From positions 8,703,991 to 8,767,990 of the forward strand of contig NC_090792.1 in the NCBI RefSeq assembly GCF_040054535.1: DNA of 64,000 nucleotides, read 5' to 3'. A program made the translations under genes and the position numbers. Shown piece after piece: positions 11,120 through 50,248 of the stretch (positions within the stretch are counted from its first letter, which is position 1; each line of letters begins with the position of its first letter). The stretch comes from Antennarius striatus (lineage: Eukaryota > Chordata > Actinopteri > Lophiiformes > Antennariidae). The notes below the pieces were generated by a model that was not told the origin of the DNA, did no database searches, and worked only from the letters and a program-made list of their open reading frames with translations.

Positions 11120-14100
11120 ATGTGGCTAACGGCAGCACGGGCTATAGGCCTCCCCCCAGGACCAAGGAGGTGGTCATTAACGGCCAGACTGTCAAGCTGA
11201 AGTATTGCTTCACTTGTAAGATCTTCAGACCGCCACGTGCCTCCCACTGCAGCCTCTGTGACAACTGTGTGGGTGAGTGAAAATGTAATTCCCTTGGTGT
11301 GACATTGTGTGTTTGGCTGATGTCTGCTGTCTGATTTTCACTCCATTAATCCATTAATTTAATAAACACAAATGTTCAAGACTCTTCTGTCTTAATCTTA
11401 AACCATTTCGTATTTGTTCAAAAATGTATTTTAATGGATCACATGAACAGGTGATTTTTTTGTTTAAATGCAGTATGCTTAAAAAATCTTTTTAATATAT
11501 TCTTATCTCTTTTTAGAACAAACTTTGGAGTTGATTTAAATGTAGACATATGAACGTCTCCATACCCACTGTAAACATCCACACGTGTTAGGACACATGT
11601 TGCAGATGAGTCAGAAAAGTCACACTGAGCATCTGTTTTTGGAAGATAAGCCAGACTAAATGTTTAGAATTCAATGCCGATTTGCGGAGATAGAACCGCT
11701 CCCTGTGCGTCAAAGAGTTGTCATTCCCACTCACAGGAGGGAAGAAGGAGGGAGGAATAAAACTGAAGCATAATGAATGAGTTTCGCTGCTCTTGAAAAC
11801 CACTTTTTTCCATCCCTGGAGACAAAGCAGAGCATAATGAGGAAATTGTTTAGGGACAGAGATGGAGAGATTAGTGGATCCTGTGTCTTTCTCTTGGTCT
11901 TGGGCTGCTCATTCATCAGAGATGACGACTCCTTTGAATTCCTGTTTCCTCGTCTGAAGAGGAGCTGACTGAAACCTCGGGACACTAAAGATGAAGAAAT
12001 AGTAAACAGGAAAACGATGAGGCGTCAGTAATCAAATGCATGCTGGCAGGAAGGGAAACAGACTGGCAGATGAACAGACAGACTGGAGGGCAGTCGTTTT
12101 CAAAAGCACACTTTGCATGCTGATACAAAAAGGTGGATCCTGTGTGCATTTTTATTTCTTCTTGTAATTAAATTGTTCGGGCTGTTTGATTAGATTTTGA
12201 CATATAGTAATGCAGATATCCTGCCTGAAAAACCATGATAATACATAAATGAGCGTGATTTAAACTAGTAAAACGTTATTCCAGCTCGAACAGGGACTCA
12301 GAGACGCATGAGCGAGGTTTAAAACTTGTTTTGATCATAGTTGTGAGCCACAGAGAAATGTGAAGAATGAAGAACAGCCAGATTGTATTGATTATCCATA
12401 CTGCAGGCGGGTGAGACTGATTAAGTCCTGTGATGTTGTAACTGGTCTTTCCCCTCTGCGTTCAAAGCTGCAGGTTTCCATACAACACGGCTCCATATCC
12501 AGTCAGTCCAGGGTTCAACCTGAAGCCTCAGAGATAAAGTATGGTACAGGGAACAAGGTCACACGCAGGAGGAAAGACTGTTAAGTTCCTCTGCTTTTGT
12601 GAACAGCAGGGAGCCGGGAGATCCTGTCTGTTTCTGTTCTATCCTCTGCATACGTTTTAATTTTGTAGTTGTGACAAAATGGATTTTCAACTTTCTCCCA
12701 ATGTAAATGGGGAATGCATTGGCAGTAGAAAGTTCTCTGCTGCCTCCTCTTGACATCTCTGTTTCTGTTCCTCTTGTGCTTTGAGGGCCACGGGGCTAAC
12801 AGACTCTCAAATACTTGAGCAGCCAGAATGGATGAAGCCCCCCCCCCCTTACCGATATGGTCTTCTTCTGTCAAGACGGCTAATAGAAGAGCTTGAGCAC
12901 ATTATGACACACATTCCCACTCTGTCGTCTTTCTTTTACCTCCTCACATCCACACTAAACACCTGTTCAGTGTAACATTTAGAACAGGACAATATGAGCG
13001 TGCACAAATTACAATCAAATAGTCCAACTTCCCGCTTTATTATTCACGGGACATTAAGGACGAATGTTTCATGCTGTGCTAATCAGACATTCTTCCTGTC
13101 AGACTAATTTGCATTTCCCAAACACTTCTTCTTAGAACAAAAGCAAGGCATTTCTCCTCAGTGAACAAATAATGGATCTGATTAATTGTTAAGTAACTAA
13201 TACTGTGCCAAGCTGGGGGTCTGCCCTTAAGGTATAAAAACTGTAGAGGTCACTAAAAATCCCCGGTCCGCAAGAGCGGCAAAAGTGGTTCACAAATAAA
13301 AGTATTTTCTTGTTTAAAATCCCACCAGCTGACAACCTTTCACGTTCTAACTATTTATACTGCAAACTGCACACAGATGTACATGTTGTTTCAAAGACAT
13401 TGCTTAGATAATTTCTTAATTCCACACTCTTCACTTTGTTCAGCTGTACACACTGTGTGTACCAAGTTAGCAGACGAGCATTACATTAATGTATTTGAGA
13501 AGCCTTTGGCTTTAATATCTCCGTGTCTCAACATGTCTGTTGTCTTCACATGAAATTCCTCTAATGTCCTCAGATGTTTTTGAATAAAAAGGTTTCTTTC
13601 AGCCTCTCAAGCAAACACACTGAGAGCTTTTTCATCCTCACATTCTTGTTGACCAGCCTATCATTTTTATTTGCAAGCCTGTATAAATAGCCAGTTTACA
13701 CTTCTGTCAAATTCTGGAATGTCTCCTGGCCAGAGCATCAAATGTTCTTTATGTTTTGCCATTTTCACTTATCCTGCCTTAAGTCTCTGATTTCTAATCC
13801 ATATGTGCAGAATCCATAAACTGGATTATTTATGATGATATTTATTATGTGTTTTTTTAAAAGCGCATACAACATGGCACAGATTTACAATAGAAATATA
13901 TGAAGACTAGATGTGCATCCAGTGACTCTCCGTGTGTCTGTCCCTCTATCTATGCAGAGCGTTTTGACCACCACTGTCCTTGGGTTGGGAACTGCGTGGG
14001 AAGGAGGAACTACCGTTTCTTCTACATGTTTATCCTCTCGCTCTCCTTCCTCACCATCTTCATTTTTGCCTTCGTCATCACTCACATCATTTTAAGTAAG

Positions 14101-16614
14101 TAGCTGAGCTCAGAAATGGTGTAGACACACACAGTCCTCCTACCTGTGTTCTGAGTGTGTGTCAAACCAACAGGTTGTTGGTGGGTGTTGTGAAAAGATT
14201 CAGCTCTCTGGATTGTTCCCATCTTTCCAGCTGGGCGCAGGCAGAAGACGTGATCTCCTTATCAGTGTGAATGTAGTGAGTGAATTAGTGCCATACTAGG
14301 AAAAAAATGTGGGCCAAATACTTGGTAATTTTTAATTGTTAGTGTTACATGTAATCGGCTTAGTTCATTCTGTAAACAACATTTCAGAATGAACACTCGT
14401 GATCTAGTAATAGAACAGTAGTAGAGTCAGGAAGATGTCACACAGAGCTACCAAAAACTTATTTTTGGTCTTCTTGGAAGTTCATTAAAGTTCCAGATAC
14501 CATGGGCACACTCTGCCCCTCACGGTTAAACCTGTTGAGCTTTTTAAGTCTCATTCATCAAAACCACATTGTAAGTGTGAGTAATGCATTCAGGCCACAG
14601 AAGTGCAGACCATGTGGGTAAAAAAAAAAAAAGATTTAATGGCTGTGAGCAGAAAACAGATGGAACTCATCCTCACATTGTAGTGGCCAGAATGAGTTTG
14701 TGCCACCAACGATGTTGTGCTGCACCATCAGGACAGGAGGAGAACTTTGTGTCGGATGTGAAAGCCTCTTTGGAAGAGTTGTTGCTTCGAAGCTGGGAGC
14801 TGAAAGTCGCTGACTGAACACTCCCACCTGAATCATCCCACGTGGCTGAACAAACCTACATATCTGAATTATATCTGAATGCAATCTTGGACGTCTGCAG
14901 AAAGCAATGGCTCAAGAGTTTGTTGAAGCCAGTATCTGATACGCTTGATGTTCTGTACAGTGGTCTAATGTAGACTTTTTTCTTTCTCTGTTCTTAGGCT
15001 CTCATGGAATTGGGTTCCTCAACGCGCTGAAAGAGAGTCCTGCTAGATATCCTTCCACTCAATATTGCATGTGTCTGTTAGCGTAGTCCCATCTGTTCAT
15101 CTGTTTCTCTTCATGTTTCCCTGCCCTCCTTTTTCTAATCACACAGTTGATATGGACTAACTCACCCAGCACTCTCCAAGTGGAGTTCATTGGCATGACA
15201 TGCCTTTTCAAGTCTTTTCCATTTATCATGCCTTCCTGTTATAGCACTTTGGTGGGTGTTGTATGTCTGTTTAGTCCGGTTCAGTCAAAGTAACACACTC
15301 TGTTCCTGTCACTTGGTTCAGTCGGTCTTTGATTTCAACACACTCTCCACTATAGAGATGCTATGTGAACCAAACCTGGGACAAGCGTGTCTACCTGAGT
15401 TCTAAAGACAGTTAATGGTCTCAACATCAGTGACCATTGTGTGGATTGTGGTAAAACGAAGCAAGTCAAACATTTTACTTTGACATTGCAGTGAAGACTG
15501 GTCTCTCACTAGCTTTTAGCTGTTAGCCACGACTGTAACAGGAGTCAGCAGTCAACTATAGTTAGTACTATTGTCATCTCCTTAACATAGCGATTAATAG
15601 TTGTGTTTAATTCAGCTCTTTATCAATACTGTTTGACTATCAATGACTGCTAATGATAAATACGTCTATCTTTGACCGGATTTTTGATTTTTTTTTTTTT
15701 CCCCCCACATAAATAATATAAACAAACGAGTCTGTGAAAAAATTATAAACAATTCTTTTTTCTGAGCAACAAATCAAGTCGCGAGCACAGTGCTGTGACA
15801 GCGTCAGTCTTTCTGGACTGAGCGATGGAACTCCCTCTCTGGCAGAGGACGGTATACCAGCTCAAGCTGATAACAGCTTGTGTCCTGCAGGACATTCATA
15901 AAGGGGAAGGCAGTCGATCGCGTCCAAGCAGTGTTTTGTACGAGGTGAATGATGACATGTTTCATCCTTGCCAAAGAGGAAAGGCTTGCGCGCAGAGAAG
16001 AAGAAGGGGAGTTTAAGGGAGGCAGAAGGGAAGAGAGACAGACTGACTCATGTTGACCTGCAAAGAAAGTTGACCTGCAAACTTTTTTTTTTTTAAACTT
16101 GAGTTAAAGAGACAAAAGCATGTCACACTTTCAGTTCCTGTATATTTTCTCACTCCAGATTGCATCTTGAGATGTAATGTCTCGTCATTGTTCAGTCACA
16201 GAGACAGACGGATTATCTTGGACACTGTCTGTGTTTTTGTGCTCTTTTTGGAGCAGAGAAAATGAGCAGCATTCAGCAGCCCCGGCCAAATGAACTGGTT
16301 ACTAGGAACTATTGGCAAGAGCAGGACAGCCCCGAGGCTGTAGGTCAATATGCTAGCTGTTCACACTCTGTCCATACTGATTCCACTAAGTGAACGTCTT
16401 TGTCAGTGTTTAAAATGCAAAAATGAAGCTGTGGTTGGCGTGTGTTCCTTGACTGAATTGTGTCACTGTGCTGGAGGTGGTGGTGTGCTTCTTCTCCGTC
16501 TGGTCCATAGTGGGCCTTTCAGGCTTCCATACATACTTAATCAGCTCCAACCAGACCACCAATGAAGATGTGAGTATGAACACACACAGTGGACCTCAGT
16601 ATGCTACAGAAGCT

Positions 16615-16677
<63 letters not shown>

Positions 16678-19600
16678 GTAAAGGATGAGGTGTCACTTCT
16701 AGGTTTGTACACTTCCTGAATCTGTTCCACACGCTTCATTTTATTTTCTGACATATTTGTTCCAGAGTTTATGACAGTTGGCTTTTAGTGTGGATCAAAA
16801 GTGTCTTTTGTTTGTTTGGTGGTTGTTTGAAGGGACAGAGCTTTAAAGCCAAAACATACCCCAAACATCAAAATGATGGGGCAAAAATTATTTGTTAATT
16901 ATTTAATAATTATTTTTGTTCATATTTAGATTATTTTACGCACTACCCTAACCAAATTTCAAGCAAATCTTTGGTGTTAAACGATGATTTCCCGGTTGTT
17001 CTCATTCTCCTTTATACATACCCAGAACACTGTACGCTGTGCTCTTCTAGGCTCCCAGTTGGAATGGAAGTTGACTTGTTTGTAATTTTGGGGGCAATTT
17101 GTCACCTTCAAATGACTCCTGTTTAAGAAGCAAAAAAGTGATTTTGCTTATTTATATATAATGCAGGAAAAATAAGTAAATATTCTGTGTGTATGCATTA
17201 CTTGTTTTTATGGTTATCTTTATTTGAACTTTGAATGATCTCTTTTTCACCCCAGTCAGACTGGCGAGGCTGATTTACAGTATGACCGTGTCTTGTTTGC
17301 TCATTTGGTCTGAACGTGATGCTAAAGACGACCAAAGTCGTAGATGCGATGCTGATTGAGAATTGATTCCAGTGAGACATGACACATTGATCTGTTTGGA
17401 ACTCCAGATCAAAGGGTCCTGGTCTTCTAAAAGAGGGAAAGACAACTATAACCCCTACAGCCATGGAAACATAATCACCAACTGCTGTGCAGCCCTGTGC
17501 GGACCCCTGCCACCGAGGTACGACATGTGTGGACGTGTGAGAGTTTTTATGGTGTGGTTTACACACCCCCAGATGTTCATCAAGATCTTTTCCTGCTCTT
17601 TGAAAGCCCATTCAGCATGTTTTCACTTGTCACGGTAAAAGTTCGCACCATTACCCCTTCACTGTAATTTACAGTTCCTTCCTTGGGAAATTTACAAATA
17701 TAAAATCTAAAAATAGGAAGTAGAACTGTTAGTCAAGACTCCTGTTGATGTGAGGATGTGCTTTGAAAGGAGCCTGCAACCTTTTCACTTCTGAGTATGT
17801 TTATATTCAGACGCGAGTATCCAACACACACACACACACATATACAGTATATATCATGTTCATGTGACTCTTAAATGTCAGTACACATGACGGTTTCTCT
17901 CCCACCTTCTTTCACTTCTGCATTTAGTAGCAACAGCTACAGTTACTGATCCCTGTGACACTGTACTTCCTTCCTTTCTGTCATTGTGACAAAAATCTTC
18001 TTGTTTATCCACAGGACTGATGTGCCAACGGTCTCTTTTCTTATTGAACAATATCCCCACTTTAAAGAAAGGACACTCGACACTGTAATTTACGCCACAC
18101 ATAACTCTTAACTTTTGGAACCTGCATCACTTTCAACACCTTCAATACTGTTAAACTGCACACACTGAGTCCATCTAGAGGGGTATGTACGTTCACTAAA
18201 GGTATAAGAATTCCAAACATTCTGCTGGTGTGTCTGGCTGTACTGCGCTCTGCCCCAACCATCAGTCACCAATAATGATATCTGTAGCAAAGGAGAAGCC
18301 TCAGTGCACAGGTGGAGGCCAGGCCATCTGCACATGTGTGTGTTTGTGGTATTGTACAGTTGAGTCCACTAGAAGGAAAAGAATGTTTCACCTCAGCCTC
18401 AGCGCTGCTGCTCACACTCAGACAAAAGCCTCTTGCGTTTCATTCCCTGCTGAGACCTTGACTCACATTTTGTAACGCATCAGCCTACATGTTTTTATAC
18501 TTGTTTCCTCCTGACTGCATTTGCAGACATCGTGGTATTCATTACCCTCAACGCACACACACCGCTGCCGCAGGTTCCCGGAGTCTGTCTGTGCAACTCG
18601 AGCAGGTTGCATCCACCTGAATCCAGCTCGATCCCACAGAAAGACACTGTCAACACTGTTAAATGATTACCCTGTTTCTGCTGCATAACACCTCATCTGT
18701 GTGTGTGTGTGTGTGCGTGTGCGTGTGCGTGTGCGTGTGCATGACACTGCTCTGTGACACGTCAACCTTTATCTGGGTGATAAGTAGCCATGAGCACGTG
18801 CGTCTGGCCCATGACCACATGAGGATATGCACGAGTTCAGCAGGCTGTCCTCTCACCAGAGAACCAGACTGTGGTGTTAATAATGGGACAGGAACAATCA
18901 TTCACTCCAGTCATCTACTGCAGGACCTCAATGACTTATTGCCTAGATCTCATTTTATATGTGTGTGTAAAGGTAGATGTGAAGACTGAACAAAGTAGTG
19001 TCTGTGTGATCCCACTGTTGCTCTAAATCATTGTCCTTAAAAACATTAACTCGACCTGACTGAAGACTCGGTATCCATGTATTGTGTGGGAGTCGATGTC
19101 TGTCCAGTTTCATTTGTGTTAGAAGGTTCATGCTGAAAATAATCCATTTTTACGACCCTCTTACCGTATTTAATCTGTTGGTGAGCAACGGTAGCACTTG
19201 TGAATAATCGCCACAAACTTCTTTCTCCCTGTTTCTTTCTGAAGCCTCATTGACAGACGGGGCTTCGTCCAATCAGACACGCCGCAGCTGGCACCACCGA
19301 CCAATGGCATCACTATGTACGGTGCCACCCAGTCGCAGCAAAGCCACATGGTAAGACACTAACCTCAGCTTACACTGCTGTAAAATGGATAACTACACAG
19401 ACATGCAAACACAGTCTGAGTTGTGTTTAAGGGACGAGGATAATAATTGGAACGCACACGGTCTGATGTCATGCTGTAGGGACACGTAGGGTGTGAACAT
19501 GTAGGGTCTGAACTGGGTCGATAGCCGAGCTTGTCTTCGCTTCTCTGAGGTTTTTTGTCGTGCACTGAAGGTGAGAGAGGGAAAACAAACGCTTCCTGCA

Positions 19601-22600: not shown

Positions 22601-24770
22601 TTATATTTAATATTCTCGGGTTCAAGGGTCGGTTTCCCCAAATGGTAACTAAAACACAGGAAGACAGGAAACGGTTTCACATGTTCTGGTATTAGGATAG
22701 ATCTGGTCAGGAATAAAAAGACATCCTTGGGTTCTGCAAATATTTTCCATTTTTCAATAACCTAATACAGTAATATATATTTTTATAGATCAAAAATATG
22801 AGTTAGATAAAGAAATTTTTTAGAAATCTGAATTACAGGGTTATCAGATTTCTTCCTACAGAAAACCAACAAAGTCAGGGTTTCATGTTGGTTTTCCTTC
22901 CTTCCTGCCCCTCTTCTGTTGTGTCTCCTTTTACTTGGTGAGCAGAGTGGTATTTTCATACAATGCACACACACACACACCGTGCTGCTTGATCAATCTT
23001 TATTTCCTCATTGATACATACTCAGTCACTGGTGTGTGATCCACAGCTTCGTTTTCCCTGAACTACAACTGATTCACACTCCAATCAGACATTGATCGAC
23101 ATTAAATTATGGTGTGGAAACGACTGGACGTTCACGAGAATTCTTCAGAAGATTTATCAGACACCTCCAAACATAAAGTTATTTAATACAATAAACAAAC
23201 GTATAAACTCTGGATTAGAAACTGGGATTAGAGAAAGGGATTTTGTATTTTATTTGGCTGGAAAATGGCTTAAAAGATTATCAATGAAATAAGAGAATCG
23301 TGTTTGCGCCTGTCTCTGTCCATATGAAGGTCTGTAACGGTTAAAGATTAAATTACAGACTGAAATCTAAATGTACGATTCTGATTTTTAAAATACTGAC
23401 ATTCCACAGAAACATTTTGTGCTTTTTTTTTGCCAACTATAAGCTGGTCTGTCTGCTTTTCTTGCCACTTGTTGTCTGAGGTTATCCTATCAGCACACCT
23501 CCCTCATCATTTTTGGGTGTGTTCTATTGGAATGAGAGAGTAGTGATTGTTAGTAAGAAACACAGGCCTGAAATTTAGAGAAACACCTCCACCTTAGCTT
23601 CTGTTTGAACCACATCCTCAAATCTGCTCTTTTCAGGTCAGTGAGGTTGGAACACAAAGGTGAGAAGTCCAGGCAGAGCTCAATGCTTCCAATCATTGAT
23701 CAGACACATTGTGAGGTGATTTTGTTTGTAAAAGACCGATCAGAGCACGTCTGTTTGATTGTGTGTATTTTTTAACTTCTGTCACCGCTGGTCTGCTAAA
23801 CACACAGTTGCCCCGGGTTGATAATGGGCTGATGGGGTGGGAGCTAATCTCCCAGAGTGTGTTATTGATGACTGGCCGATTCCCAGCCTGGCTTCTGTGC
23901 TCCAGTTTTCGACGTGTGATTTCCGCTCTAAATCCAGGCAATAAAGATCAATAGACGATGAAGCGCTGACTTAAAGCATTGTGTTTTCAGCTCTGTCCTC
24001 CCCTCAGCTCTGTTTTCACTGGGGCAGAAGCACAAGCTGGTGGGGGCTGTTTGTGGCTCTGCATTCTAACATGGGTACTAATATCTGGTTCTCTGTGTCT
24101 CTCCCTTGTCCAATCATCTATCCCGTCCTATCATGTTCCTCTCTTCTCTCTCCCTCCATTTAATTTTCATCACTACCTTGCTCTTATTTGTTTTCAATTT
24201 CCGTTCTTCACCCCCACACCTTATCCACCTCCTCACCTTTGCCGTCTCCCTTCCAAATTGTTCCTCCCTCTCCCCTGCTTCTTTGCTCCTTCCTCTCAGT
24301 GTGACCAAGACCAGTGCATTCAGAGCACCAAATTCGTTTTGCAGGCCGCCGCCACCCCTCTCCTCCAGCAGCAAAGCAGCGAGCCGATCATCCTGACCGC
24401 CTCCCCCGAAAACGGAGGCTCTCTCCCGGGCCGCACCTCGCTCTCCCTGGGTGGCCCGTGCACCTCTCTCCCTCTGGGCCAGCCCACCCCTCCGACGTCC
24501 ACGCCCAGCCTCAGCTGCCACGAGGCCACCGACATGCTGCCGATTCACGGACATGGCCACGCTCACAACCACAGCCATCCCCTCCAGGAGTCTCTGGCCC
24601 ACCACCACTTCCTCACTCCAGAGGAAGTGCCTTCGCCACCAGGCATGCTTCCCTGTGGCACCCCCATGGGTCACAGCCACACTGTTCAGGCTGGTTTTTA
24701 CAACCCAGCGAGCCAGGATTCGCTTCACGAGGACTCCGTCAGAGGACTGGTCAAGCTCAGCTCCGTCTGA
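11120..24770 (+). CDS. zdhhc14: Palmitoyltransferase ZDHHC14 (3' seven exons; 5' end outside window)
   Basis: Transfers palmitate to cysteines of substrate proteins; family members are multipass Golgi/ER-type membrane enzymes. Coding exons: 11120-11272, 13958-14095, 14998-15046, 16467-16569, 17408-17517, 19245-19350 and 24300-24770. Phases agree at every junction, giving about 375 residues to the TGA. In order: [20 protein letters not shown] leading into the cysteine-rich domain ([16 protein letters not shown]), catalytic DHHC in [12 protein letters not shown], a membrane segment ([20 protein letters not shown]), a second one ([20 protein letters not shown]), and the TTxE motif as TTNED. The tail ends [19 protein letters not shown], which is the ZDHHC14 C-terminus and separates it from ZDHHC18. 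One intron is AT-AC type (15047-16466). The last exon carries a His-rich stretch ([11 protein letters not shown]). It converges on the galectin gene downstream. Confidence 0.94.
13958..14095 (+). CDS. zdhhc14: zdhhc14 catalytic DHHC exon
   Basis: The acceptor is TATGCAG and the donor is A/GTAAG. The exon completes the Glu codon split at 11272 and encodes [20 protein letters not shown] followed by a hydrophobic membrane helix. The Cys of DHHC is the acyl-intermediate residue in the family. Both incoming and outgoing introns are phase 1. Confidence 0.95.
15047..16466 (+). other. zdhhc14: U12-type AT-AC intron of zdhhc14
   Basis: The exon ending at 15046 stops inside a Ser codon (AG), and the protein resumes at 16467 with T GTG CTG GAG, giving the conserved ESPASVLE. 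No GT donor or AG acceptor fits that junction. Instead the intron begins ATATCCTT, which is the U12 5' splice consensus. It ends in AC, with TTCCTTGAC (16445-16453), the U12 branch consensus, placing the branch A about 14 nt from the 3' end. Length is 1420 bp. No other frame-preserving U2-type solution was found. An ancient minor-spliceosome intron is the simplest reading. Confidence 0.93.
16620..16673 (+). repeat. (CA)n microsatellite
   Basis: Uninterrupted CA dinucleotide tract, about 26 units, just inside the zdhhc14 intron following exon 16467-16569. Other short CA/TA tracts in the same gene occur near 17825-17850. Confidence 0.97.
17518..19244 (+). other. zdhhc14 intron with GT-rich repeat
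   Basis: Intron between exons 17408-17517 and 19245-19350 with canonical ends. It contains a (GT)n/(GTGTGC)n tract at about 18700-18741 and no recognisable gene on either strand. Confidence 0.85.
18700..18741 (+). repeat. (GT)n / (GTGTGC)n compound microsatellite
   Basis: A run of GT units passes into a regular GTGTGC hexamer repeat. It is purine-pyrimidine alternating throughout. Confidence 0.9.
19351..24299 (+). other. Last intron of zdhhc14
   Basis: This 4.9-kb intron has a GTAAGA donor and a C/T-rich CTCAG acceptor. Open frames inside it are short and show no family signature. An RFX-type X-box lies at 22499-22512. Otherwise it is unique, AT-rich sequence. Confidence 0.8.
22499..22512. 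promoter_or_regulatory. Consensus RFX X-box in zdhhc14 intron
   Basis: GTTGCCATGGTAAC is two half-sites in near-perfect inverted arrangement with a 2-nt spacer, the consensus for RFX transcription factors. It is intronic and far from any recognised start codon, so any role would be as an enhancer. The sequence match is direct; the function is inference. Confidence 0.5.
24300..24770 (+). CDS. zdhhc14: zdhhc14 terminal coding exon with His-rich insert
   Basis: Starts with [20 protein letters not shown], which contains a conserved Cys pair, and ends at TGA 24768-24770. Compared with the mammalian protein as I remember it, the middle is longer: it has a QQ-containing Ser/Pro-rich region and a stretch of alternating His ([11 protein letters not shown]). 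The exon is notably GC-rich against its AT-rich intron. The C-terminus is again family-typical. Confidence 0.93.
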   Translation, partial: CDQDQCIQSTKFVLQAAATPLLQQQSSEPIILTASPENGGSLPGRTSLSLGGPCTSLPLGQPTPPTSTPSLSCHEATDMLPIHGHGHAHNHSHPLQESLAHHHFLTPEEVPSPPGMLPCGTPMGHSHTVQAGFYNPASQDSLHEDSVRGLVKLSSV

Positions 24771-32573: not shown

Positions 32574-35500
32574 CTACTCGTGTGCCGGAGACGTGTCCTT
32601 GTCCATAACTCCCTTTTTGGTAACTCTCTGACTTATCCCGTAGGGCACATGACACGCTACCGTCCCTAATTCTGCCGCCCCTTCCACATGAAACATCTGG
32701 TCATCAAAGAAAATGTGTGGCCTTATCTTCTCAAGCACAGGACCCTTCGGAGCCCCTGCTAGAAACAGGGCCTCATCGATCTCCAGCCCCCACGAGCGTA
32801 GAGTCTTCAAGGCTCTGATTCCAGAACTGGCTGCGCTGCGAGCCGTCACCAAGAAGGTCCGGATGGGGCAGTCCATGCGGTGGCCTTTCTCATAAAACTT
32901 CTTCTGGAGCTTACCCAAAGCCTCCAGGAAGCCTTTCAACGGTCCCTGTGGAAAAAACGGAGTCGTTTCTACATTCACATGTAGCTCATAACACTTTAAA
33001 ATTCATGTCATTGTTGGATCTTTTCTTCTTTTTTTCATTACAAATTTGCTTTATGTTTGCTCTGTATGCATTGTCCATCAGCTGCTTAAAGCCAATTACT
33101 TTTTTTTAAAGCTTAACATTAACCATCATATGATCCATCACTGTGCACATCCTGGATTCTACCTGTTCCTGTGTCCTGATCTCATAAATGACTTTTTTAC
33201 CAAAAGTACCAGAAATGATGACATAGAATTTAAAAAATATATAACCATAGCTATTCCTTGAGTAAATGTGAATTGAATAAATATTTGATAGCAGTGTGAT
33301 ACTGATAGATGTGTAAACTGTACATGGTCCAGAGGCTTGTTCTCGTGTGTCTTCTCGTGTTCAAAAAACTTTTGTAGTCCGTGTGCCTTGAAAATGCGCT
33401 CCGACTCATCCGAGAACAGGACCGCATCACCATCGAAGGCCACTCGCAGCTGAATCTCCGACACCTCCGCCATCTTCTCTTGGGTGAACATTGTGGCTGC
33501 AGCGATACCTGAATGCATTGTGGGAATCAGACATTCATCAGTACATCTTAATGCATGCAGAGGGAGCGTTTCATCTTCTCAGTAAGAGGTGTCTCTGCAC
33601 TGACCTTCCTCCAGAGCTTCTCGCACCTTGACTGGATCAGCAGACAGGTAAAGGTTAGCGTGGTAGGCCTTCAAGTAGCCAATGGGACTGTTTCCCCCGG
33701 TCATACATATGCGCTCAATGGCCAGCTCTGGAAAGAGGAGTCAATAGTTCAGTACAAGACTGAAAACATGCACAGGTCAGCTGAACACAATGCTGTAAAC
33801 CAGTGTCACAGAAGATCAGCATCAATATTGTGCTTTTCAGGAAGATGTTTCAGTGGTAGTGCCACAAGTTTGAGTTTTAAATGGTCATCCTTTCTGTGAT
33901 GTCATCAGTGGATTTGTTGACTGCGTGGTCGTCCAGTCCACAGTGTTTTTCTAATTACCTACCTACCTACCATCCATCCATCCATCCATCCATCATGTTT
34001 ATATCTAACATGTTTCCATCCCTCACAGGAGCCTCACAGTGAGTCAGGGAGTGTTTACTAGTTGTTGTCGCTGGTTTAGGTAACCTGATGTCAAAGCTTG
34101 AGCTCAGTTCTCACAGCCATCATCTAATTTGTGACACAATGGTTCATAACACAACCATCTATCAGTAAGTTAAATTAATGCCTGAAAAAGTATGAAGGAT
34201 GTGAATCCTGGATTGAATTCGGTGTGATGTCAGTGCTGATGTTTGAATCCAGAGAATAGAGTCAGAATTTAAACTGACTATAAGCACAAAAAAACAACAA
34301 CAACAAATCTGACCCTCATCCCCTCCCATAAGAAACACATTTAATATGAATAGATCGGGATTTTGCTTTAAGTGTCCTAATTCGTCCTTGTTGGTAAACA
34401 CATTATTAAAAGATACCTTCAATGACTAAGCTAATCATTTGTGTTTGTTTGTTTGTTTGTTTGTTTGTTTGTTTGTTTGTTCTAAACTGTTCTACATGTT
34501 GTAATTATATACATCCCCTGTTTTAAGTTCATTTGTTGCACATTTACATATTTAATTTTCTGTCTTCTTCTTCTCCACACTGCCCTGCAGAACATGCAGG
34601 GACGACGATCTCCGGGTATCGATGGTCTGACGGTTGAATTCTATACAGCCTTCTGGGACATTCTAGCACGTGATATGCTAGAAGTGTTTACCGATAGTCT
34701 GGCCTCAGGCTCTTTGCCACTGTCCTGCTGGAGGGCGGTTGTTGCCCTCCTGCCTAAAAAAGGCAATCTGCAGGACATCAAGAACTGGTGCCCTGTGTCA
34801 CTGCTCTGCACCGATTACAAGATTCTGTCCAAGGCTTTGGCTACCAGGCTGAGGGAAGCTATGGAGCAGGTCATCCACCAGGATCAAACCTACTGTGTGC
34901 CCGGCAGGTCCATGGCGGACAATGTCTTCCTAATTTGAGATGTTTTGGAGGTTTCCAGATCATTGGGTATAAACGCTGGTCTCGTTTCATTAGATCAGGA
35001 AAAGGCATTTGACCGTGTTGAGCACAGCTTCCTCTGGACAACTATGGAGAAGTTTGGGTTCAGCACCGAGTTTATTGCCAAGATCCAGGTGTTGTACAGT
35101 GACGTTGAGAGTACTCTGAAGTTTAACGGCAGTTTGTGTGCCCCCTTCAGGGTGCAGCAGGGCATCCGACAGGGCTGTGCTCTGTCTGGGATGCTCTATG
35201 CACTCTCTCTCGAACCCCTCCTCTATAGAATCCGCAAAAGCATCGATGGTTTGATTTTACCTGGTGTTAGAGAGAGCGTTATTTTATCTGCTTATGCTGA
35301 TGATGTTGTTGTTCTTATCGAAAACCAAAGGGATGTTGATGTTCTGGTGGGTTTGACAAACTCATTCAATGTTTTAACTGCTGCAAAACTAAACTGGACC
35401 AAAAGTGAAGCCTTTGCTGTTGGTGAGTGGAATGGCAACCTCCCGGTTCTTCCTCAAAACTTGTGTTGGAAGACTGATGGTCTCAAATATCTCAGTATGT

Positions 35501-38062
35501 ACCTTGGAAATGAGACAACGACCAGGAAGAACTGGGAGGGCGTCATTGAAAAAACAGAAGGGAAACTTAAGAAATGGAAATGGTTGCTCCTCTGGATTGT
35601 CGTACAGAGGTCGAGTTTTAGTGATAAACAATCTGGTAGCCTCACAGCTGTGGCACCGCTTGACCTGTATGGACCCTCCATCAGGGTTTGTAGCCCAAAT
35701 CCAGACCAAACTTGTTAACTTTTTCTGGGATGGGCTGCATTGGGTGCCTCAAGGAGTGTTGTTTTTATCAAGAGAGGAGGGGGGACAGGGCCTCATCCAC
35801 CTGGCTAGCAGAACAGCCACGTTCAGATTACAGTTCATCCAGCGGTTTCTGACCAGACCAGCGGTTCTGACGTGGAGAGAGGTGGCCAGCTTCATGTTCA
35901 AACGTGTGAGTAACTTGGACCTGGATGCTGCACTGTTTTTAATGGACTCCAAGTTTCTAAAGTTAAACGGTTTGCCTCCGTTTTATCATGGTGTTTTTAA
36001 GTCATGGGCCCTATTTAAAAGCAGCCCAGGAAAAAGCTCTGACTCTTTGTTCTAAACGTGATTTTAAAAATGAAATCAAATCATCTTCTTCGTCAATTTG
36101 TTTTCATTAGATGGTGCTGAGCTCCAGACTGACATGTCTCCCAGTAGACTAACCTCCAGCAGGTGTGTTTCCTGCCTCCACCCAGAGTAAACACTAGCAG
36201 CTGTTGGTGGGTTGGTTGGATTGTTGGAGGGATTACACAAAACCTACAGGATGGATTTCCACCAGACTTTTTGGGTGGGTTAATCCCATCAGTCCTAACT
36301 TTCCTTCATGTTTGGGGATCATTCAACATTTCACCTAATTGTGCTACGACTGTGTGAAAACATCTGTGCGTAGGATCGCTGCTGCTTTTCTTGTCCTACA
36401 AGGAACAAATGCACTGACCAAAGGAATTTTAGGCCACATTAAAATTTTACCTTGCTTTAAAGTACAGGCTAAATCATAAATGTTGGTTGTTTGTTTCTGT
36501 GTCAGGAACTCACGATGATGATTGATGGTGTTGATGAGTCTTAATCCGACATACGCCTTGTTGTTGGTCATGAGCACGACATCAAACAGCTCCTCGCTAT
36601 CGGGGTAAAGCTCTCTGAGTCGAGCGTTCACGGCCTCCAAAGCCTTGGAACACATGAACAAGAGACAATCGCTGCAGTGATGATGGATGTGGGTGAGCGG
36701 GTGGGGATCAATGCTGATTACTCATCCACCTCCTCCACAGACACCAACGAACACCAAACACTGATAACCATGCTTTCACCCTGCAGTGGGGGGTTGACAG
36801 TTCTTTCTCAGCATCTTCCTCTTGGTCGTGTCTGACCTTGACGAAGGAGAAGGCCGGTCCAGGGCTGAAGGGCTGCTGTTCGTGCTCCTCCTGGTACTTG
36901 ATGTACTCCTCCACACCGCGCTGCTTGTAGATCTGCTGCTCCTTCTCCATGTTGAAGAGGACACGCGACGACACGGCGATGGTGATGGCGTTGTGCATCT
37001 GGGGCTAGGTGGGTGGGGGTGGGGGTGGGGGGTGACAGTTTGAACATGTTTGATTTTGTTCCTCATTGAGAATTCTCCTTTATTTAAAGAAAAAATCCAC
37101 AAATTTACCGACTGATTCCCAGGAGAAAAGAATAAGTTAATAAGAGTTTAGTCGCAGATGTCTGACATGTAGCAGCAGGTAAAAGGAGCTGATCCCCTGA
37201 TGGCTGGAGTCGGATCATTCAGCTCACTGACTCCTACAGACTGAACTGTCTGTCCCCTTGTGGTTTCCATGCTGTTTGTTGTGGCTGTTGTGTTTGGTTT
37301 GTCTTTACCTTTAGCTTAATTCTAACAATGTCAGTGGATCAGGTTTCAACTCCTGTGTGTGTTTGTCCAGCCATCACCCCTGAGTTCATGTTGTATTCTA
37401 TCCACATATACAACACAGATTGCTTGTGCCAGAGCAGGAAGTTGCTTCTGCGTCTTTTTTCCATATGTTGGTTCAACGTCTGCACATCGGCAACCAATGA
37501 GCAGCAGATACCGAAACCACACAGCTGATCTGAGACAAAAGTCCGCTGGGATTTGCTCAGTTTCCCATGGAAAATAATGTCTAGTTCAGCCTGTATATCC
37601 TGTTCAACTCAACTGCTATTATTTTCAGCAGAGCATCCACCTTATCTAGTAAACTTCTATGAACCCTCTTGGTTCCACTGCACTAGTGTGAGAAGTCAGT
37701 GCTTTCATTTTCTGTCATTGATCACATATTCATTATATTTTGTCATCTTTAACCCCTGGGGAAATAATAAACCTATATGGGCTTTAAATATTTGAAGCGA
37801 TAAGCTGCAGGCCTCAAGATAAGATGTGAGCATCTCTGCTCAGATATAGAAACTGACAGGAAGTGGATACTGCAAGAAGTCGGCCGTAGGGGTACTCACT
37901 GGGTTAGGTTTCTGCATGGATGCTCTTGGCTTCAGGACTCCCCCGGTGTCTTCCAGTTGAGCCTGATCACTGCAGAGTCTGGCTGTCGTTCAGACTCATC
38001 CTCCCCGGAGTTTCCCGTAAAATGCTCACCGACTGACATTCGCGGAGGATGTCGCTCAACAT
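32574..38062 (-). CDS. nt5c1a: Cytosolic 5'-nucleotidase IA
   Basis: Hydrolyses AMP to adenosine and phosphate in the cytosol; a HAD-fold enzyme. Firm exons (minus): 36998-36837, 36643-36514, 33727-33605, 33508-33324 and 32945-32574 (stop TAG). Phases agree, giving 323 residues from [12 protein letters not shown]. Landmarks: [49 protein letters not shown], catalytic [16 protein letters not shown] (DxD nucleophile), TARSAASSG, and FFDDQMFH (Mg-binding Asp pair). [11 protein letters not shown] and SPGPAF favour NT5C1A over NT5C1B, as does the mycl-mfsd2a neighbourhood. Two less certain 5' exons fit in phase: 37962-37900 and 38062-38030 ([11 protein letters not shown]). They need a 67-nt intron, so the true start is open. 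At 36998 a TAG three codons earlier offers an alternative acceptor. A dead LINE lies antisense in the 2.8-kb intron 33728-36513. Confidence 0.88.
33957..33994. repeat. (CCTA)n then (CCAT)n tetranucleotide repeat
   Basis: ACCT units pass directly into CATC units, in the nt5c1a intron. Confidence 0.9.
34441..34481. repeat. (GTTT)n microsatellite
   Basis: About ten TTTG/GTTT units in the nt5c1a intron, about 110 bp before the LINE fragment. Confidence 0.95.
34590..36055 (+). mobile_element. L1/Tx1-like LINE reverse transcriptase fragment, degenerate
   Basis: The plus strand encodes reverse transcriptase blocks in order: [19 protein letters not shown], then [56 protein letters not shown], and the catalytic [11 protein letters not shown]-terminal region with [13 protein letters not shown] and [18 protein letters not shown] resembles fish Tx1-clade L1 elements. 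It is not functional: there is an in-frame TGA at 34936-34938 and a frameshift near 35590, after which reading continues in another frame to 36055. The endonuclease and 5' part are missing. It lies antisense to nt5c1a inside an intron. Confidence 0.9.
37008..37032 (+). other. G-quadruplex-type G-run at an nt5c1a acceptor
   Basis: Four G-runs (GGG to GGGGGG) separated by single T bases on the plus strand. This is the non-coding strand complement of the C-rich polypyrimidine tract just before nt5c1a exon 36998-36837. Confidence 0.7.
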
Positions 38063-48122: not shown

Positions 48123-48923
48123 TCACAGGTGTTTCAGCTCGGACAACCTGCGGTGGAGCTGCTGCTGTCGGACCTTGAGACGTTTCTTCTCCTGGAGCTG
48201 CCGCTTCTCCTTGGCGCTCAGCTCCATGAGGTACTCTGTTGCTTGGGTCAGGATGGCCACCTTGGGGGTCTTGGACGACTCCAGGCCGGGGATCTGATCG
48301 CGTAAGGCCAGGAAACGTGAGCGCAGATCATTCCTCCTCTTCCTCTCGAGGAAGTTGTGGTTCTTTCTGCGGTCGGTGTCCTCCGTGTCGGAGGTTTGAG
48401 GAGTCTCTGAAGGCGAGGCTGACTGAGAGGCGCGGGCGTGCCGACTGGACCCTGTGCTGACGCGTTTCACTGGAGGTTCCTGCTCTTCTTCATCTTCCTC
48501 ATCCTCCTCCTCGGGGTCCGGTTCGCTGTCTGGAGAGGGGGCTGCGTAGTTGTGCTGCTGCCGGTGGACAGACGCGTGGAATCGTTTGGGGCAGGGATCC
48601 GCTCTTACTGTGACGGTCACCGGTTTTCTCAGGTTGACCAGTCGCATCCGGCTCTGTTTGCTCTCCACGGTGACCACGTCGATTTCCTCTTCCTCATCCT
48701 CCTCATCATCCTCCTCATCTGTGATCACACAGGAAACATAACCCATCAGTTACACATGTCATCCAGAAATACTACACTGCTTCCTGTGGGAGAGGAGCGC
48801 GGTGGTCATCCGGAACAAAAGCTTGCAGGAATTCATTCATTGTCATTCAGCACTGAGTGTTTAAACAAGAGCTGGTGGCAGGGGGGAAACTCCCCAATTT
48901 GACAAACGTGAAAGAGTTACTGT

Positions 48924-48985
<62 letters not shown>

Positions 48986-49824
48986 TAATTAATCACCAGC
49001 ACCGGCCACCCCGCCCCTCTGCCGCACCGACCGTCGAGCCAAACGCAGACACTGACAAGTAAAAGCGGCGGGGGCGCGGTTTTTAAAACATTTCACGGAC
49101 ACTTAAAAAGCACGCATGTGGCGCATTGCGAAAGTGAGAGTGGAATAAACACTTTAAATATGACCGTGCACTTGATAACCCTGACCGGTTACACAACCCC
49201 CCCCCCAACCCTCCAACACCAAATTACGCATTGTTATGGGGCAATCTAATCCCACGGCAGGGACAGGGTGGGGCGGGAGTTGACTGTGACTTCCTTACCG
49301 GATGAATCAGAGCGAGACTCCGAGCCAGATGAGGCCGGCTTCCTGCAGCTGTTCGCGGGGATGGTGAGAACAGCCGCCGGGTCTACGCAGTCTGTCGCCG
49401 GGGTGGCGAGAGGCGCGACGGGCGCGACGCACTGCGCTTTGGTCGGTCTCGCCGCCGAGACGGCCGCCTGCGCCGCAGCAGACACCCTCCCGTTGACCTT
49501 CTCCAGCTGCTTACTGGCGGAGAAACTACTCCACATGCAGTCCCGGATGATGATGGAGCTGAGGTTACCGAACAGCTTGGGTGGGTGCGGGATGAACTGG
49601 GTGTCGTAGTCCTCGTCCTGGCCCAGGACTCTCGATAACCGGCTGAGTTTGTCCCCCGGAGAGAGAGGCGGCGCGCCGCCGCTCAGAGTCCGTGTGGGAG
49701 ACAAGGGAGGGGAGGGGAGCAGCTCGAACTTTTTCCATATGTCCTCGCTTGGTGCGGTCGACTGGTAAAAATCCTCCTCCGTGTCGAAATTGTTGAAGAA
49801 ATAATGCGGGTAGTAACAGTCCAT
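48123..49824 (-). CDS. mycl: L-Myc transcription factor
   Basis: Nuclear bHLH-leucine-zipper factor that binds E-boxes as a heterodimer with MAX. Coding exons on the minus strand: 49824-49299 and 48718-48123, 373 residues. The start MDCYYPHYFFNNF was chosen because it matches the family N-terminus and follows the probable acceptor at 49883; an in-frame extension upstream is intronic. Myc box I: EDIWKKFELLPSPPLSPTR. Myc box II: IIIRDCMWSSFSASKQLEKV. The intron splits an Asp codon inside the acidic tract, and exon 3 continues with a Glu/Asp run and EEIDVVTVE. A second acidic run (about residues 250-265) is followed by the bHLH (KNHNFLERKRRNDLRSRFLA) and a zipper ending SELKHL. Length is close to human L-MYC. 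Teleosts can have two copies (a/b); which one this is cannot be told. Confidence 0.96.
48926..48983. repeat. (GT)n microsatellite in the mycl intron
   Basis: Pure GT tract of 29 units within the 580-bp intron between the mycl coding exons. Confidence 0.97.
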
Positions 49825-49882
49825 GTTGTCGGTGAATAAGAGTTTATTCCCCCCAAGGAAGAAGAAGCGGGTCCTGGACAAC

Positions 49883-50248
49883 CTGAGGGCAAATACCAGA
49901 GTAATAAGCAACGATCTTTTTAAAAGCCATTCCAGTCACACGTATCAAGTATCCATTTAACGGGCTGTGAGGATATCACATCCTCCAGTCGCCTCCTCTC
50001 CACATATGGGACCTCATCAATAATTGACCGCACCTTGTGGATGCTCTTTACACAAACTGTCCGGTTACATAAGGGCGTCCACGGCTTTCTACTTCTAGGA
50101 GTTGAGACTACAGATAAAACATGAGGCGTGACTTTCCTGGAATGAATCAGGATTGTGCGTAAAATAAGAAGAAGAAGAAGGGAGAAGAAAAAAAAAAAGT
50201 AACATTGTCAAAGAAACTTTCATAAGCGGATGGAATAAATGTACTCAC
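49883..50248 (-). other. mycl: Probable mycl 5' UTR intron
   Basis: On the minus strand a CCG/GTGAGT donor at 50248 and a TTTGCCCTCAG acceptor ending at 49883 would join a non-coding exon 1 to the 58-nt 5' UTR before the ATG. MYC-family genes typically have a non-coding first exon. Confidence 0.6.

Follow-up and report, generated by a model that had tools for sequence, protein, structure and literature searches.

The window, by which we mean the whole stretch of 64,000 nucleotides analysed here, carries on its forward strand a gene of the DHHC palmitoyltransferase family, whose recognisable parts are these:

11245..11272, plus strand: 3' end of the CRD exon (HCSLCDNCV...), its 5' end approximate; ordinary GT donor (GTGAGT) at 11273
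13958..14095, plus strand: DHHC-motif exon, 138 nt, donor GTAAGT
14998..15046, plus strand: 49-nt exon directly 5' of the AT-AC intron, 15 codons plus 2 nt
15047..16466, plus strand: predicted AT-AC U12-type intron, phase 2, 1420 nt, assigned from its signals, the reading frame and same-position introns in eight further genes
15047..15054, plus strand: U12-type 5' splice site ATATCCTT with C at +5, matching the consensus at 8 of 8 positions, at the exon border AG/ATATCCTT
16445..16453, plus strand: U12-type branch site TTCCTTGAC, matching TTCCTTRAY at 9 of 9 positions, with 14 nt after its A
16465..16466, plus strand: terminal AC, the first AC 3' of the branch site
16467..16569, plus strand: TM4 exon, donor GTGAGT
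17408..17517, plus strand: exon after the TM4 exon (...CGPLPP), its 3' boundary a candidate only (GTACGA)
24314..24764, plus strand: part of the last exon, with the type-I PDZ ligand LSSV at its end; boundaries approximate

We name the gene zdhhc14 because its last coding stretch, when translated, ends in the PDZ ligand LSSV, a C-terminus described as being peculiar to ZDHHC14 among mouse and human palmitoyltransferases and conserved in vertebrates (PMC7685708). The name zdhhc18, to which the adjoining MYC-family and 5'-nucleotidase genes had pointed, was dropped on account of this ending. The window's own genome (548 Mb), to judge by its genes that of a teleost, was searched for paralogues and for snRNAs, and a second zdhhc14 copy, on contig C19, shares the C-terminal ending. 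For the other genes below we use zdhhc9, zdhhc18 and zdhhc5/8 as provisional names, which follow from sequence likeness and family features. As to the neighbourhood, the window contains a cytosolic 5'-nucleotidase exon (32574-32978, minus strand; PF06189, 134 bits), a LINE-like element with reverse-transcriptase open reading frames (34594-36055, plus strand; RVT_1, 73.5 bits for 34945-35718) and two MYC-family gene open reading frames (48123-49911, minus strand; one with Myc_N at 118.7 bits, one with HLH at 53.3 bits and a Myc_N tail). An Rfam search of the window returned nothing at gathering scores.

The 49-nt exon ends in CCTGCTAG and is followed by ATATCCTTCC, and 1420 nt on, TTCCTTGAC and TGAATTGTGTCAC are followed by TGTGCTGGAGGTGG. 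Joining of the two exons at these borders brings AG and T together in a serine codon, and the resulting protein gives a Pfam DHHC match (PF01529, 84.8 bits) that runs through the junction. An earlier note on this DNA had held that the donor, a branch site 14 nt from the end and the terminal AC fit the minor-spliceosome consensus, and this stands in every position and coordinate, the branch distance being one nucleotide beyond the stated optimum of 11-13 nt (PMC3584512). The donor ATATCCTT occurs only once in the window, both strands counted, as does the combination of TTCCTTRAC, 6-14 nt and AC, which is found at the zdhhc14 intron. ATATCCTY appears at a rate of 2.7e-5 per base in a first-order Markov sequence, 4 Mb long, with the window's composition, and at such rarity a match exactly at the sole frame-joining base is not expected by chance. 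The intron resembles the AT-AC U12-type introns of animals in its ATATCCTT donor, TTCCTTRAY branch site, AC end and phase other than 0, and it differs from them in none of its signals and only in the gene family that hosts it. Minor introns in general avoid phase 0, and AT-AC introns make up about 26% of those in human (PMC10639083), so that the earlier description of them as a small minority of U12 introns is right as to minority but overstates its smallness.

Could the two exons be joined in some other way? All joins with a donor within 15000-15100 and an acceptor within 16300-16600 that are open and in frame to TTNED were enumerated. The four GT-AG joins all drop VLEVVVC, the closest of the five GC-AG joins (15042/16476) drops the five residues ASVLE, and of the five AT-AC joins in frame 15047/16466 is the only one that gives the conserved protein; its product agrees in length and residues with the paralogues and with human ZDHHC9 (PDB 8hf3_A). 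The earlier statement that no way but the AT-AC intron had been found of joining ESPAS to VLEVVV in frame thus holds against the GT-AG joins but has to be softened for the GC-AG join, which is in frame though five residues short. That the major spliceosome serves this junction, be it through such other termini or through a U2-type AT-AC intron like SCN4A intron 21, is nevertheless very improbable. The GC-AG join is indeed open and in frame and U2-type AT-AC introns do exist (PMC2831892), but the ASVLE residues lost by the former are conserved in the paralogues and in human ZDHHC9, the GT-AG joins delete even more, and the U2-type AT-AC introns of sodium-channel genes reported in the same source all have G at +5. 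Here this position is C, in zdhhc14 as in all nine genes with the intron described below, which speaks against the U2-type AT-AC class.

The strongest argument for a U12-type AT-AC intron comes from the relatives of zdhhc14. A DNA search gave three further TM4-exon loci and a Pfam DHHC search 37 matches, from which 30 loci were extracted; two TM4-exon searches returned at least five strong matches of the ZDHHC9/14/18 type and at least four of the ZDHHC5/8 type. An ATATCCTY...AC intron is present at the same codon and in the same phase in all five ZDHHC9/14/18-type genes found, C being the last donor base in one of them, and a GTATCCTT...AG intron is present at exactly this position in all four ZDHHC5/8-type genes found:

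zdhhc14, window: ATATCCTY...AC, 1420 nt
zdhhc14, C19: ATATCCTY...AC, 145 nt
zdhhc9, C10: ATATCCTY...AC, 659 nt
zdhhc18, C14: ATATCCTY...AC, 99 nt
zdhhc18-like, C9: ATATCCTY...AC, 628 nt
ZDHHC5/8 gene, C8: GTATCCTT...AG, 82 nt
ZDHHC5/8 gene, C10: GTATCCTT...AG, 125 nt
ZDHHC5/8 gene, C15: GTATCCTT...AG, 92 nt
ZDHHC5/8 gene, C3: GTATCCTT...AG, 100 nt

In all nine the junction is in phase 2 and lies 15 residues before GL[ST]GFH, the donor reads [AG]TATCCTY with TATCCT invariant in the alignment, and retention of the intron would bring an in-frame stop that starts 7-73 nt inside it. The branch sites match TTCCTTRAY at 9, 8, 8, 7, 8, 7, 8, 9 and 7 of 9 positions and leave 14, 9, 11, 13, 12, 17, 9, 12 and 14 nt after the branch A; each is simply the best-scoring match within the final 40 nt, chosen with no control, and some are weak. 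Weak or off the optimum are those of the C19 zdhhc14 copy (9 nt) and of two ZDHHC5/8 genes (9 nt and 17 nt, the latter with 7 of 9 matches). Since the nine genes are related, they should not be treated as nine separate trials. With one intron at one codon in all of them, it looks long conserved and not like the product of a sequencing error. An error of sequence or assembly, with a true GT-AG intron whose ends were turned into AT and AC by wrong letters, had been named in the earlier note, for the case that orthologues have a GT-AG intron here, among the findings that would overturn the AT-AC reading. The paralogues speak against it, and it is hardly conceivable at this site: the same termini recur in five genes on five contigs, in introns of 99-1420 nt. 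Taken together, the signals of the zdhhc14 intron itself and the introns of its paralogues support its assignment to the AT-AC U12 type, and we regard it as almost certain that 15047-16466 is such an intron; its origin probably predates the separation of the ZDHHC5/8 from the ZDHHC9/14/18 genes.

Neighbouring donors and other DHHC loci served as controls. The adjoining donors that could be located in the nine genes (nine of nine for the TM4 exon and eight of nine for the CRD exon; n=17) are ordinary GT donors without TATCCT, and the TM4 exon of a zdhhc2/15/20-like gene on C13 is unbroken through the homologous point. On the gene strand of the other 21 of the 30 DHHC loci RTATCCTY occurs five times in 67,284 bases, compared with about 3.2 expected from the Markov sequence, and this bulk count is not above chance; two of the five matches lie exactly at exon borders. 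One is in L043, which we take to be a zdhhc16-like gene (reverse complement, ~1381; G000:C21:6459005-6459148:-), where a U12-type donor, TGCC/GTATCCTTCTTAA, stands right after the DHHC codons in phase 1 and at a different position, with an acceptor CTCCAG/CGTGGTTGAAC that restores PWLNNCVG. The other, a second further U12-type candidate, is in L037, presumably a zdhhc1/11-like gene (reverse complement, 1011-1140; G000:C1:1776672-1776800:-), and reads PAGYI/GTATCCTTACGC...CCCTCAG/TGCATGGGC in phase 0 over 130 nt. The branch site is weak in both. A weak TM4 match on C16 (E 0.386) was rejected as it shows no DHHC features.

How, then, would one position come to hold AT-AC introns in one group of genes and GT-AG introns in another? 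The simplest reading is that a single U12 intron was already there when the 5/8 and 9/14/18 genes still shared an ancestor, before fly and vertebrates separated, and later underwent one subtype switch: with AT-AC retained among the 9/14/18 genes and GT-AG among those of the 5/8 clade, a single switch at a single ancestral intron would suffice. The direction usually reported for such switches is from AT-AC to GT-AG (PMC2831892, PMC3584512). The closest published case is intron 4 of ZDHHC8 (Drosophila CG34449 and human ZDHHC8), which is U12-type with GT-AG ends in both fly and human and has turned U2-type in two dipterans (PMC2831892); it shares with the zdhhc14 intron the gene superfamily and the minor-spliceosome signals, but it is GT-AG instead of AT-AC and belongs to the other clade. 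In the fish ZDHHC5/8 genes the GTATCCTT intron lies 3' of the exons CPWL..., CRD and DHHC, an order from which we infer that it corresponds to this intron 4, given one further 5' exon. Known subtype-switch cases, such as the U12DB clusters and fish syntaxin-6, likewise hold both U12 subtypes at one position, although these clusters are orthologous (PMC2831892), whereas here the subtypes are split between paralogous clades within one genome.

Then again, the AT-AC introns of the 9/14/18 genes and the GT-AG introns of the 5/8 genes might have arisen independently at the same codon without any switch. Their difference in subtype, together with the description of switches as rare (PMC3584512), is in keeping with this. 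So is the exon structure upstream, where the 9/14/18 genes have an additional intron, separating the DHHC exon from the 49-nt exon, which is missing from the ZDHHC5/8 genes. However, two separate gains would have to coincide in codon, phase 2 and U12 type in all nine genes, the 36 U12DB clusters with both subtypes (PMC2831892) make it plain that switches do happen, and the unbroken TM4 exon of the zdhhc2/15/20-like gene argues, from this one gene, against a family-wide insertion hotspot. Two independent gains that agree in codon and phase are therefore less likely than a single origin, and on the whole we consider them unlikely. Over the 21 residues around DHHC, zdhhc14 and the ZDHHC5/8 genes are identical at 17 of 21; since another locus, L017, reaches 16 of 21, short-peptide identity alone does not prove that the two groups are sister clades. 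In fly, the orthologue of the 9/14/18 genes is the gene approximated. The table of 19 fly U12 introns in PMC2831892 does not include it, which suggests that the intron was lost or converted there.

The genome encodes the RNA components by which such an intron would be removed. Across the whole genome, U12 (123.1 bits), U11 (114.7 bits) and U4atac (94.1 bits) snRNA are each matched once above the Rfam cut-offs, and U6atac snRNA eight times, the best at 129.6 bits. In U12-type splicing U11 and U12 recognise the donor and the branch site and U6atac then replaces U11 (PMC3584512); at zdhhc14, ATATCCTT would be recognised first by U11 and later by U6atac, and the branch site TTCCTTGAC by U12. The intron would be cut out at its AT and AC ends, with the 49-nt exon joined to the TM4 exon in phase 2. 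If the intron were retained, 13 residues would be added before a stop, and skipping of the 49-nt exon would likewise shift the frame to a stop. In either event the frame would end before or within TM4, so that the full-length enzyme would need minor splicing. The retention product would keep the DHHC segment and lose TM4 and the C-terminal tail, unless the mRNA were destroyed; a truncated product, loss of the mRNA and any regulatory use of either may be envisaged. The dependence of enzyme output on the minor spliceosome, which the earlier note had taken to be implied, is a prediction from the reading frame.

How much of this is already on record? One count for zebrafish gives 662 U12-type introns in 612 genes, of which 218 introns are retained in zrsr2 mutants; palmitoylation is among the protein-processing functions affected, and the main text of that report names no zdhhc gene (PMC9501576). 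Our search of the literature on ZDHHC14, 9, 18 and 5 with U12 or minor-spliceosome terms, which covered neither supplementary tables nor U12 databases, found no description of this intron; the ZDHHC9/14/18 introns are probably present in the U12 catalogues. The zdhhc14 intron does not represent a new kind of system; it is a well-founded annotation and, in evolutionary terms, an attractive case. Its value is that the junction is settled in nine genes and not in one, at a place that gene finders confined to GT-AG introns are expected to miss, and that AT-AC and GT-AG forms of one ancestral intron make a natural pair with which to study the resistance of AT-AC introns to conversion.

The U12 intron shared by nine genes before TM4, together with the GTATCCTT donors that stand at other positions in two or more additional DHHC genes (among them the zdhhc16-like and zdhhc1/11-like ones), also raises the idea, a speculative one that we consider unlikely, that a large part of the palmitoyltransferase family is jointly gated by the minor spliceosome. 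If so, low minor splicing would truncate many DHHC enzymes at once with their catalytic domain intact, and protein palmitoylation could mediate part of the neural phenotype seen in minor-spliceosome disease. A joint effect on the DHHC enzymes would be directly testable in the zebrafish zrsr2 mutants.

Two minor observations concern the snRNAs. Duplex energies computed between splice sites and the 5' termini of three of these RNAs, which lack a shuffled control and were kept out of the evidence, ranged from -4.3 to -9.9 kcal/mol for U11, from -4.3 to -8.2 kcal/mol for U6atac and from -7.8 to -10.8 kcal/mol for U12. Of the eight U6atac matches, four follow one another at spacings of about 9 kb (G000:C19:1773862-1800690), in an arrangement resembling a tandem array.
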